This document shows positions 967-61,794 of a stretch of DNA of 64,000 nucleotides, in pieces. The first letter of the stretch is position 1. The number at the start of each line of letters is the position of its first letter. The translations under genes and the position numbers were made by a program. Source of the DNA: Unio delphinus (Eukaryota > Mollusca > Bivalvia > Unionida > Unionidae); NCBI GenBank assembly GCA_029339505.1, contig JAQISU010000348.1:797501-861500 (forward strand). Direction: 5' to 3'. Under the pieces are notes generated by a model that was not told the DNA's origin, ran no database searches, and saw only the letters and a list, made by a program, of their open reading frames with translations.

Positions 967-1049
967 AGGCCGGTCAACGCTGTTTAGAATGTCATGAAGT
1001 ACCCACGCCTCAGACCTGTTTACGTGTCTCTGAATGCGGTGAACATGAA
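967..1049 (+). CDS. Gene 1 exon: LU domain 1, first third (C1-C4)
   Basis: A pyrimidine run and CAG precede the exon and GTACGT follows. It begins with two bases completing a split codon, then reads 27 codons with the pattern CLEC, then C and C, ending CGEHE at phase 0. The CxxC start followed by two spaced Cys is how Ly6/uPAR domains open. The gene 2 counterpart (41884-41966) has the same length and phase and shares the EVPTPQ core. A - strand open frame over the same bases is a shadow. Confidence 0.85.
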
Positions 1050-60700: not shown

Positions 60701-61794
60701 AGATACATAACAATGGACAATCAACACCGAATCCTGCTGAAAATATTGTAGGAAAACGAATTAGCACTTTCGGTGATTGTCCTGCTTGCTGCTACACTGA
60801 TTTCTGCAATAATAACTGCTCTCAGAATAATTCGGTTGCCGTACACGGAATAACACAAATACCAACATCAATCAGCATTACAAATGCACCAGTGGTGACA
60901 CTAACCAGTACAATTCAGGCTTCTGCAACCACCCATCCTGAATTGACGAATACAACCAAGCGTGTCACAGACCTGCATCAGCATCATACGAGTATGCCCA
61001 GCACCGCACTAACACAATCTACCAAACATCAAACTTTAGTACCGGAAGCGACCCATCTTGGTACACACTTGCATCCGGAGCAAACGAGTACACATGTTCC
61101 CAGCATCACGCATGCACCCCAAGGTATTTATTTATTAATATAATTCTAATCTGTGTCTATTGTCACTCTCATATTTTGTAACAAGGTTCATCATCAAAGA
61201 TCAAAGATTCTCAAAACCATCCGTTTGAAGACCTTTCATCGATAGGAACATTCGTAAATTAAAGTTTCAGAAGCAAGCGACACATACTAGATCATCTGAT
61301 ACATGTTTTGAAAATAAAAGAATAATTCTAACGATATCCAACAAGGAAATTAAATGAAAGTAAATTTAGGGAGTATTGTAGCGTCATAGTTCAGACACAT
61401 TTTGTTTGTGCCAAAATATTCACGAAATATTTACCTTTATGTATGTACACTATCAGACCCCCCCCCCCCAAACTTCTTTGTTTTAATCCATAACATTGCT
61501 GACATAACTAGACTTGTCAAAGTTAATAATAGAAAAACGAGTATGTTACTATCATGCATTAATTGGTTAAATAAACATTCCAAATGACTATTCTAATATT
61601 ATTTGTTAATGCAGAGTGTTCACAGGTTGGAAATGGTTATATTCAAACGAGACATTTGTGCATTAAGTTCCACTCTGACGCCATAAATTTCAAAGGTGCC
61701 CTAACAGCTTGTTCTAAAGAGGGCGCTATGTTGGTGACTATAGATACAGAAGATAAGATGAACGAAATCTTGACTGAGTTGCAAACATTTTCAA
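39715..61794 (+). CDS. Gene 2: paralogous secreted LU-LU-linker-CTLD protein, multi-exon (3' end outside window)
   Basis: Join of eight exons: 39715-39769, 41884-41966, 42331-42402, 50803-50905, 54617-54714, 55840-55911, 60682-61123 and 61615-61794. Together they give 1105 bases, 368 codons plus one base, still open. Layout: signal peptide 1-18, LU1 about 19-104, LU2 105-209, Thr/His linker 210-308, CTLD1 from 309. Exon number, order, phases and most lengths equal those of gene 1; only the third LU1 exon (103 against 115 bases) and the linker exon (442 against 379) differ. It arose by tandem duplication with gene 1. The second half of CTLD1 and any CTLD2 are not seen before 64000, so the gene continues past the window. 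An extracellular binding role is inferred; the ligand is unknown. Confidence 0.85.
39787..39862. repeat. (TCA)n-(TTA)n microsatellite
   Basis: TCA repeats then TTA repeats, 18 bases after the end of gene 2 exon 1. Confidence 0.95.
39905..40196 (-). mobile_element. Full-length-like SINE family B copy in gene 2 intron 1
   Basis: The - strand begins GGGGCCCCGAGTAGCCGAGT, with A-box GCCGAGTGGTCTAAAGCGC and a B-box-like GTTCGAGTCTAAGA, as in Leu/Ser tRNAs. The body follows and ends in AAATGGCGTTAAACCAT plus an A/C-rich tail. Confidence 0.85.
41058..41560. repeat. 80-bp direct repeat, 423 bp apart
   Basis: TTGAAAATATGTCAGTAATA through TAGTATGTTAAATGTT occurs at 41058-41138 and, with few changes, at 41481-41560. 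The rest of intron 1 of gene 2 (40197-41883) shows nothing else. Confidence 0.8.
41884..41966 (+). CDS. Gene 2 exon: LU domain 1, first third
   Basis: Preceded by CTCTTTTTCTCAG and followed by GTGCGT. It has 83 bases and the same phase as gene 1 exon 967-1049. It reads AGQHCFSCNEVPTPQSC and ends TICGDHE. The CxxC opening and the two following Cys are all kept. Confidence 0.85.
42331..42402 (+). CDS. Gene 2 exon: LU domain 1, middle
   Basis: Preceded by TGCTTTTTTGCAG, with 24 codons, phase 0-0, reading SCFTESIISSSGTVFYNVGC. The donor GTTGGT is weaker than the others, but length, phase and sequence match gene 1 exon 2349-2420. A CA/CATA repeat block follows about 90 bases downstream, much as a minisatellite follows the paralogous exon. 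Confidence 0.82.
42493..42676. repeat. (CA)n-(CATA)n-(GT)n compound microsatellite
   Basis: Runs of CA, then CATA, then GT; all frames over it are repeat artefacts. Confidence 0.97.
43067..43119. repeat. (AT)n microsatellite
   Basis: Pure AT run. Confidence 0.96.
43682..45703. mobile_element. Candidate 2.0-kb non-autonomous TIR element
   Basis: TATAAGGGGTTTCACGG (43682-43698) is mirrored by CCGTGAAACCCCCTATA (45687-45703), and a second inner pair CCGGATAGTT and AACTATCCGG lies near 43738 and 45600. No open frame of interest within. TA at the outer ends could be a target site, but a clean duplication was not resolved. Confidence 0.4.
45710..46660. other. Gene 2 intron, no gene seen
   Basis: AT-rich; short frames only. 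Confidence 0.6.
46669..46738. repeat. (GA)n microsatellite
   Basis: GA run with two ACA interruptions. Confidence 0.96.
47004..47061. repeat. (TAA)n microsatellite tail of the LINE
   Basis: Lies directly at the 3' terminus of the - strand LINE, where L2-type elements carry short tandem repeats. Confidence 0.9.
48508..48966 (-). pseudogene. LINE pre-RT and RT fingers fragment
   Basis: 152-codon open piece with DPIPTSLL and KNYRPVSNLPLI, typical of L2/CR1-type RTs; it stops before motif A. Confidence 0.85.
49279..50101 (+). mobile_element. Solo LTR with 4-bp target duplication
   Basis: Starts TGTTACGTATA and ends CACGTAACA, so it is bounded by TG...CA with inverted TGTTACG/CGTAACA ends. TATG flanks both sides (49275-49278 and 50102-50105). 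A TATA-like GGTATATAAATT is near 49640 and an AATAAA at about 50020. No internal region, primer site or gag-pol next to it. + orientation is inferred from the TATA/AATAAA order. Probably Ty3/gypsy-like by its short duplication, which is not proof. Confidence 0.78.
50315..50440 (+). mobile_element. Old SINE family B fragment
   Basis: Resembles the family B 3' half: GGGCCGGTGATTTTTCACAG, TTCCTCCATCAA and the ending TGCTGAAAATGTCATTAAAC. Confidence 0.5.
50803..50905 (+). CDS. Gene 2 exon: LU domain 1, last third
   Basis: Preceded by TTTGTTCTTGCAG and followed by GTGAGT, with 34 codons plus one base. It carries KC, then MCIECCNTTDFCNLEGCG. This is the same CxxCC, CN and trailing Cys as in gene 1. 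Four codons are missing relative to gene 1 in the loop between the seventh and eighth Cys. The 8.4-kb intron before it contains a LINE, a candidate TIR element and a solo LTR. Confidence 0.87.
51258..51545 (+). mobile_element. SINE family A copy
   Basis: Head CCTGTGGCCTAACGGTCAGA (A-box-like), B-box region eroded (TTTAGAACCCCGT), core ATGGTACTAACAGCTGCCAT, GTGATGTCAGGATAATGTGA, tail AGACATCGTAGCGAAATG. Confidence 0.82.
52000..53043 (-). pseudogene. Unidentified coding-like relic
   Basis: A 131-codon - strand frame (52648-53043) starts ATGGCACGCCATCACTA. It lacks repeat composition and is rich in charged residues. A second coding-like - strand piece with RKQNDIARYLESFVKNEK lies at about 52060-52200, with stops between. 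No family is recognised; it may be a decayed transposon gene. Confidence 0.25.
53050..54320. other. Gene 2 intron, no gene seen
   Basis: A pyrimidine-rich + strand frame at 53442-53774 looks hydrophobic only because of base composition. Confidence 0.6.
54323..54472. repeat. (TATG)n-(GGAT)n compound microsatellite
   Basis: Long TATG run followed by GGAT repeats, ending 144 bases before the exon at 54617. Confidence 0.96.
54617..54714 (+). CDS. Gene 2 exon: LU domain 2, first third
   Basis: Preceded by CCATTAACAG and followed by GTAAGT. It has 98 bases, phase 1 in and phase 0 out, like gene 1 exon 6137-6234. It reads YCYKCEVQESQNSC and ends VCGLDE. Confidence 0.86.
54715..55839. other. Gene 2 intron between LU2 exons, no gene seen
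   Basis: AT-rich without recognised repeats. Confidence 0.6.
55840..55911 (+). CDS. Gene 2 exon: LU domain 2, middle
   Basis: Preceded by AATGTTTCAG and followed by GTAAGT. It has 24 codons, phase 0-0, starting ACILER and containing YTSRCG. It matches gene 1 exon 11347-11418 in length and motifs. Confidence 0.86.
56900..58660 (-). pseudogene. Possible decayed coding region, unidentified
   Basis: Open - strand pieces at 57066-57302, 58035-58229 and 58241-58462 have ordinary amino-acid composition, and the latter two abut with a frame change (KTMTKT then MTETAILMKEDNE). The larger + strand frame at 58110-58661 is then probably the shadow. No family recognised. Confidence 0.22.
59165..59497 (-). 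mobile_element. Best-preserved SINE family A copy
   Basis: The - strand head is CCGGTGGCCTAGTGGTTAGA (A-box) and GTGGGTTCGATCCCCGGCCG (B-box), so the promoter is tRNA-like. It continues with ACCAAAGACTTACAAAAATG, CTAACAGCTGCCTCGCTTGA and the tail GACATCGTAGCGATATGACT. It contains an internal duplication of about 23 bp (59271-59317). Confidence 0.9.
59500..60681. other. Gene 2 intron before the linker exon
   Basis: AT-rich. A + strand frame at 60057-60401 has no recognised domain. Confidence 0.6.
60682..61123 (+). CDS. Gene 2 exon: LU domain 2 end plus Thr/His-rich linker
   Basis: Preceded by ATTTATTACAG, with 147 codons plus one base. It begins MCLQAQQIHNN, then GDCPACCYTDFCNNNC closes the LU fold. 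A Thr/Ser/Pro/His linker follows, with one clear copy of TH-x-H-x-E-x(2)-ST-H-x-P-x(2)-TH and weaker relatives. The donor is GTATTT. The upstream in-frame ATG of the longer open frame lies before the acceptor and is not used in this model. Confidence 0.85.
61615..61794 (+). CDS. Gene 2 exon: CTLD1, N-terminal half (last exon seen)
   Basis: Preceded by TTGTTAATGCAG and followed by GTAAGT. It has 180 bases, phase 1-1, as in gene 1. It reads [15 protein letters not shown], then [20 protein letters not shown]. The next exon (with WIG) is not found up to 64000. Confidence 0.87.

Follow-up and report, generated by a model that had tools for sequence, protein, structure and literature searches.

Tandem genes of the mussel Unio delphinus predicted to join paired Ly6/uPAR domains to paired C-type lectin-like domains

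A stretch of 64,000 nt from contig JAQISU010000348.1 of the freshwater mussel Unio delphinus (the window) carries two tandem genes, A and B, which are predicted to encode chains of two Ly6/uPAR (LU) domains, a spacer and two C-type lectin-like domains (CTLDs). The gene structure, the intron phases, the domain order and the LU-CTLD fusion models of other clams are established at the level of sequence. That the chains act as secreted two-ended recognition molecules, with defence as the likeliest setting, is a reading whose chances we hold to be about even.

Gene structure and exon phases

An earlier model-made reading of this DNA (the original prediction) had proposed eighteen exons in two paralogous genes. 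Stop-to-stop frames of the window were first compared with one another apart from that proposal, then the flanks were read and splice sites placed. The comparison gave seven similar pairs of frames, colinear and all on the plus strand. Gene A has ten exons (967-21077, stop codon included) and gene B has eight inside the window (39715-61794), in almost base-for-base agreement with the eighteen proposed, of which the start (967) and the end (61794) were exact. All exon junctions of both genes show AG/GT, with a weak donor, GTTGGT, in gene B after 42402. The entry phases 1-0-0-1-0-0-1-1-1-1 are common to both genes, the signal exon aside: each LU domain is phased 1-0-0 and followed by phase 1, and every CTLD exon is entered in phase 1.

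In gene A, with all exons on the plus strand, LU1 is built by 967-1049 (first part, C1 to C4, AG/GT, phase 1 in and 0 out, with a 79% DNA match to the gene B exon), 2349-2420 (loop 2, 72 nt, phase 0-0, matched by the Mercenaria proteins P0008 and P0011) and 5270-5384 (last part, placed by splice sites and the cysteine pattern C-x2-CC-x5-CN-x4-C). LU2 is encoded by 6137-6234 (first part; splice sites and tblastn of the window), 11347-11418 (loop 2, 72 nt, phase 0-0; splice sites) and 11581-11959, which holds the end of LU2 and a Thr/His-rich linker (T 23% and H 14% of 81 residues). The halves of CTLD1 lie at 12424-12603 (splice sites and Lectin_C) and 12934-13182 (splice sites and a Lectin_C match in the own-genome search), and those of CTLD2 at 13966-14160 (splice sites and tblastn of the window) and, with the stop codon, at 20851-21077 (splice sites and a Lectin_C match in the own-genome search). 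Candidates for a gene A signal exon about 6.5, 8.2, 41 and 43 kb upstream were weak, and none was accepted.

Gene B, also on the plus strand, begins with a signal peptide exon (39715-39769, MHLLTSFAVLVILTQRNA) with a phase-1 donor, the sole candidate passing a scan of 30000-41880, and Mercenaria P0008 has a signal peptide in the same place. The other exons inside the window were placed by splice sites: 41884-41966, 42331-42402 (loop 2, 72 nt, followed by the weak donor) and 50803-50905 for LU1; 54617-54714 and 55840-55911 (loop 2, 72 nt) for LU2; 60682-61123 for the LU2 end and the Thr/His-rich linker (T 22% and H 11% of 102 residues); and 61615-61794 for the first half of CTLD1. Past 64,000 the same numbering is continued on the own-genome sequence. 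A search of this genome, 2.505 Gb in size, found two Lectin_C exons just beyond the window end, and the remaining exons of gene B, on the plus strand, are 67204-67455, 68281-68466 and 71031-71251 (stop). Complete gene B has 11 exons and encodes 587 aa in the order signal peptide-LU-LU-Thr/His linker-CTLD-CTLD-stop, with 53% identity to A over 583 columns. The order LU-LU-linker-CTLD-CTLD predicted for both genes holds in both, with the difference that the window cuts gene B off midway through CTLD1, whose second half and all of CTLD2 lie beyond it at 67204-71251.

Divergence of the paralogues

Genes A and B are tandem paralogues, as predicted; within the window, they are 50% identical over 362 aligned positions. 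The ratio of nonsynonymous to synonymous substitution rates (dN/dS) is 0.42 overall, being 0.34 for LU1 and CTLD2, 0.44 for LU2, 0.47 for CTLD1 and 0.64 for the linker, and these values place the A and B coding sequence under purifying selection. At E 1e-4 the two loci share 12 DNA matches, eight exonic (seven of ten exon pairs) and four intronic; the first two LU2 exons and the final CTLD2 exon have diverged too far to match at the DNA level. Together, the identity, the dN/dS and the exonic matches show that the likeness of the two genes is not due to chance. CTLD2 is the most diverged domain (48% identical). In CTLD1 exon 2 (12934-13182 vs 67204-67455) dS is 0.26, against 0.62 in CTLD1 exon 1 and 0.65-1.33 in the exons and domains compared outside CTLD1. 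Codons for the same amino acid differ at 7 of 61 positions in this exon and at 78 of 238 elsewhere (Fisher p 7e-4, post hoc), and gene conversion at CTLD1 exon 2 is possible.

LU domains

LU domains have ten cysteines in a set order within 60-90 residues, with Asn following the tenth, and their textbook gene is interrupted internally only once, at the loop-2 tip, a layout that is typical but not obligatory (PMC6600238). Twelve complete LU copies were cut from the chains, two each from A, B, P0008, P0009 and P0010 and one each from P0003 and P0011; incomplete pieces in P0001, P0002, P0003, P0004 and P0011 were left out of the cysteine count. The cysteine number is exactly 12 in all 12 copies: to the LU ten, one is added on each side of CC...CN, which suggests a sixth disulfide. 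Strict spacing fits ten copies, the two Mercenaria LU2 copies having one extra residue before CC (C-x3-CC). The span is 72-93 residues, three LU2 copies being slightly over the usual range. In place of a single intron at the loop-2 tip, all four window copies have two internal phase-0 introns around loop 2, which stands on its own exon of 72 nt. Phase-1 introns lie at both ends of both LU domains in both genes; the one after LU2 sits behind the linker, and before LU1 of A only the acceptor is seen.

LU1 taken alone exceeds the PF00021 cut-off of 24.8 bits in A (25.8) and in B (25.0), and the whole Dreissena protein P0010 does so with 25.5. Against the PDB, the LU1 profile found eight sequences at E up to 1, all PSCA, SLURP-1, LYPD1 or BMP receptor IA, with PSCA as the best (E 0.0014); the LU2 profile found LYPD1 best (E 0.0046), followed by PSCA. 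Comparison of the LU1 profile with the LU2 profile gave 98.6%. The joint LU-LU profile gave SLURP-1 with E 0.055 and, further down, two CCR4-NOT chains (E 0.45 and 0.72). In the tree, LU1 and LU2 copies form separate groups (97/93) on long branches. From the LU1 score and the PDB profile matches, the identity of the LU domains is well supported.

CTLDs and calcium-site motifs

Lectin_C (PF00059, cut-off 22.6) matches A with 114.9 bits (E 3.7e-33) and complete B with 121.6 bits (E 3e-35), in two stretches each, and by these scores the identity of the CTLDs is certain. Among Pfam families, it alone passes its cut-off with whole A and with complete B; A and P0004 also had Chordopox_A33R matches, which stayed below cut-off. 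In the PDB, chain A is closest in sequence to the secretory phospholipase A2 (PLA2) receptor, at 118.5 bits.

Calcium-dependent C-type lectins follow a rule of EPN or QPD together with WND. Read by eye, the motifs of A are QPN/WYD and DPD/WRD and those of B are QPD/WYD and QPE/WRN, none of which makes the full combination; Mercenaria has EPN/WHD and EPD/WHD. Loss of the motif need not mean loss of binding, since the bivalve lectins SPL-1 and SPL-2 bind sugar without a strict need for calcium (PMC12842671). The U. delphinus genome holds at least 129 Lectin_C exon matches at E 1e-3, from a scoring of 150 of the 463 candidates, many of them clustered, with examples on the contigs numbered C31, C222, C284 and C4, a large C-type lectin repertoire.

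Relatives in other bivalves and age of the fusion

A protein search with A gave four matches. The alignment search gave seven proteins, six from the unionids Potamilus streckersoni and Sinanodonta woodiana and one metagenome CTLD protein (E 3e-4). The LU-LU profile search added four, of which two, from Mercenaria, combine LU with CTLD and two are the LU-LU proteins of Mya (P0009) and Dreissena (P0010), which share the 12-cysteine pattern and have no CTLD match; P0009 may be a truncated model, because its end aligns with a CTLD start. Proteins longer than about 379 residues were excluded from the LU-LU search and admitted by the alignment search, so two-CTLD forms in other clams could be missed in the former. 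Potamilus P0001 is 72% identical to A over 81% of A, and P0005 is 89% identical over 42%, which probably puts the source of the window nearer to Sinanodonta.

At least one whole LU domain is joined to a CTLD in P0003, P0008 and P0011, and the LU2 end only in P0001, P0002 and P0004, so that six independent gene models of three species back the fused order, the unionid ones being mostly partial. Mercenaria P0008 is complete (signal peptide-LU-LU-linker-CTLD-end, with a short Thr/His linker) and matches window exons of both kinds, LU and CTLD. The domain order foreseen for other molluscs is thus found in Mercenaria up to one CTLD and in parts in unionids; the full LU-LU-CTLD-CTLD chain is present in none of the database models, of which P0003 is the nearest. 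Database entries of the fused proteins list Lectin_C alone, probably because LU scores there fall below cut-off.

With complete B, the CTLD2 tree separates A, P0001 and P0005 from B, P0002, P0003 and P0004 (98/99), and the CTLD1 tree separates A, P0001 and P0002 from B, P0004 and P0006 (99/96). In another CTLD tree, Mercenaria could be assigned to neither CTLD1 nor CTLD2. The A/B duplication is probably older than the split between Potamilus and Sinanodonta, because both types occur in each. P0002 (Potamilus CHS0354_029482) switches sides, with A in CTLD1 and with B in CTLD2, and is a possible recombinant copy. By the agreement of the Potamilus, Sinanodonta and Mercenaria models, the LU-CTLD fusion is common to Unionida and Venerida; if it was a single event, it predates their split, because these orders lie in different superorders of Heteroconchia.

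Model numbers suggest neighbouring genes in both unionids (ACJMK2_025273 to 025275; CHS0354_029482, 029483 and 029487). The expanding family of the original prediction is a modest one, with a tandem pair in the 144 kb of contig covered and three numbered models apiece in the two other unionids. A tblastn search of the window at E 0.05 matched nothing beyond the 18 exons, and no other copies were found in 74001-94000 or in 50 kb upstream.

Proposed function and alternatives

The protein would be secreted to body fluid or mucus as a two-ended recognition molecule, which is the simplest way to read a soluble chain of paired LU domains, Thr/His spacer and paired CTLDs. In favour of this, no strong hydrophobic stretch is seen beyond residue 40 in any of A, B, P0008 and P0011. 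With its CTLD end it would attach to a microbe, particle or cell by way of a glycan or protein there, and its LU end would bind a host protein via its fingers, while the spacer, probably O-glycosylated, would hold the two ends apart. Humoral or mucosal defence would be the likeliest setting, favoured because of the general role of bivalve C-type lectins. Most likely, a phase-1-bounded LU-LU unit was joined to phase-1 CTLD exons by exon shuffling before unionids and venerids diverged.

Several points weigh against this reading. The fused chain is predicted from genomic sequence and gene models, P0005 and P0006 have no LU part and P0003 lacks half of CTLD1. Four scans of the window and of the 50 kb before it failed to find a signal exon for gene A, so 'secreted' rests on gene B and Mercenaria P0008, for which a signal peptide can be read; of the predicted single secreted chain, the fusion stands by phases and by models of other species. 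Of the proposed Pfam check, Lectin_C twice per chain and LU1 came out as expected, whereas LU2 alone fails every Pfam cut-off and PF00021 is not reached by whole A or whole B; LU1 of A is also just over the Activin_recp cut-off (21.3 vs 20.9), as is P0008. AlphaFold models are poor (mean predicted confidence, pLDDT, 52.8 and 56.0) and cannot decide the LU fold or the disulfides. With the LU-LU model, Foldseek reached no match at E 0.001, and from rank 10 on it listed SurE, which is unrelated; for P0008, CTLDs fill the list of fold matches, so that LU is barely probed there. The calcium-site motifs are non-canonical, and CTLD1 exon 2 is the most alike part of A and B, which speaks against diversifying ligand loops there.

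It could be supposed that the LU exons are parts of one gene and the CTLD exons of a neighbouring one, the fusion being a reading artefact, as the models without an LU part would allow. This is extremely improbable: in each paralogue the exon that closes LU2 keeps its reading frame across the linker and is joined to CTLD1 in phase 1, and with the six joining models and P0008, a single protein matching LU and CTLD exons, the artefact is rejected. A role as a gamete- or brood-related recognition protein instead of an immune one is unlikely. The vertebrate LU proteins TEX101, PATE and SP-10 act in reproduction, and tandem paralogy and the divergence of CTLD2 would suit such a role, whereas dN/dS is well below 1 in each domain and the fast change expected of gamete proteins is not seen.

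Snake PLA2 inhibitors include both fold classes (PMC5175389), and the PLA2 receptor is the best match of chain A, from which a secreted PLA2 inhibitor carrying both folds could be proposed. That match may only reflect domain number, as the receptor chain has many CTLDs, and the LU profiles match PSCA, SLURP-1 and LYPD1, which makes an inhibitor quite improbable. Very little probability is given to a shell or pearl matrix protein whose linker and CTLDs act on mineral. CTLD proteins occur in mineral matrices, eggshell struthicalcin is among the P0008 fold matches and unionids make nacre; on the other side, the linker is Thr/His-rich and not acidic, and we know of no LU role in shell.

Beyond the two-ended recognition molecule, it may tentatively be proposed, as a rather doubtful extension, that a heteroconchian family uses the 12-cysteine LU-LU unit as a true mobile module, brought onto CTLDs by shuffling of phase-1 exons, in a soluble bridging receptor with a glycan- or particle-binding end and an end that recruits host effectors. 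Such a receptor would do on one chain the work of separate vertebrate LU and CTLD proteins (uPAR, uPARAP).

A 2019 review holds LU to be probably not a true mobile module, to which the LU-CTLD family is a counter-example, with phase-1 exon borders still visible and members in two bivalve superorders. For freshwater mussels, the family provides a defined candidate soluble recognition protein.

Other features of the window

Fragments of RVT_1 reverse transcriptase are found at 9774-10331 (+, E 9e-10), a retroelement remnant in a gene A intron, and at 30312-30746 (-, E 1e-12), another between the genes. A gene A intron contains minisatellite arrays of 53- and 54-nt units (2500-3576). A segment present at 31829-32343 and, inside a gene B intron, at 48604-49125 (84-90% identity) has a minus-strand frame of 212 codons without Pfam match. 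Between the genes, 34758-35262 and 36193-36731 form a direct duplication, about 90% identical and about 1.45 kb apart. A gene B intron has an open frame of 186 codons at 58101-58658 (+) without Pfam match. There was no Rfam match at gathering score.

Comparison with known systems

In agreement with the original prediction, no name or published description of the LU-LU-CTLD combination was found in a literature search, with subscription papers mostly outside it. The term 'uPAR' is absent from the main text of a bivalve C-type lectin survey (PMC10140915) and of a review (PMC12842671), 'lectin' is absent from PMC6600238 and PMC11595613, and PMC9125321 holds nothing relevant to an LU-CTLD fusion. 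PMC10140915 reports uncharacterised CTLD proteins restricted to bivalves, which might include relatives. The usual settings that the original prediction gave for LU (alone, GPI-anchored or in tandem) are incomplete, as LU is known elsewhere too, for example in TGF-beta receptors (PMC6600238).

With the bivalve C-type lectins of that survey and review, A and B share CTLDs, large repertoires and variable calcium-site motifs; the Figure 2 legend of the marine-bivalve review PMC12842671 names only signal peptide, CTLD and transmembrane parts. Snake blood PLA2 inhibitors of the alpha (C-type lectin-like) and gamma (three-finger) classes are extracellular, as A and B are predicted to be, and have both folds, though in separate classes (PMC5175389). 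No sequence affinity of A or B to these inhibitors was found in this analysis. To our knowledge, none of them carries both folds on one chain.

The mannose receptor family (PLA2R, Endo180/uPARAP) carries at least eight CTLDs together with cysteine-rich and FN2 domains and is anchored in the membrane, and uPARAP binds uPAR, itself an LU protein. A and B resemble it in their tandem CTLDs, with PLA2R best by sequence, and differ in having two CTLDs, LU on the same chain, Lectin_C as the only family over cut-off and no anchor-like stretch in A or complete B. With PSCA, SLURP-1 and LYPD1 they share the ten ordered LU cysteines, Asn after the tenth, flanking phase-1 introns and, by prediction, an extracellular nature; they differ from these proteins in two extra cysteines per domain around CC...CN, and from LU genes in a loop 2 encoded by a separate exon of 72 nt with a phase-0 intron on either side and in the fusion to CTLDs.

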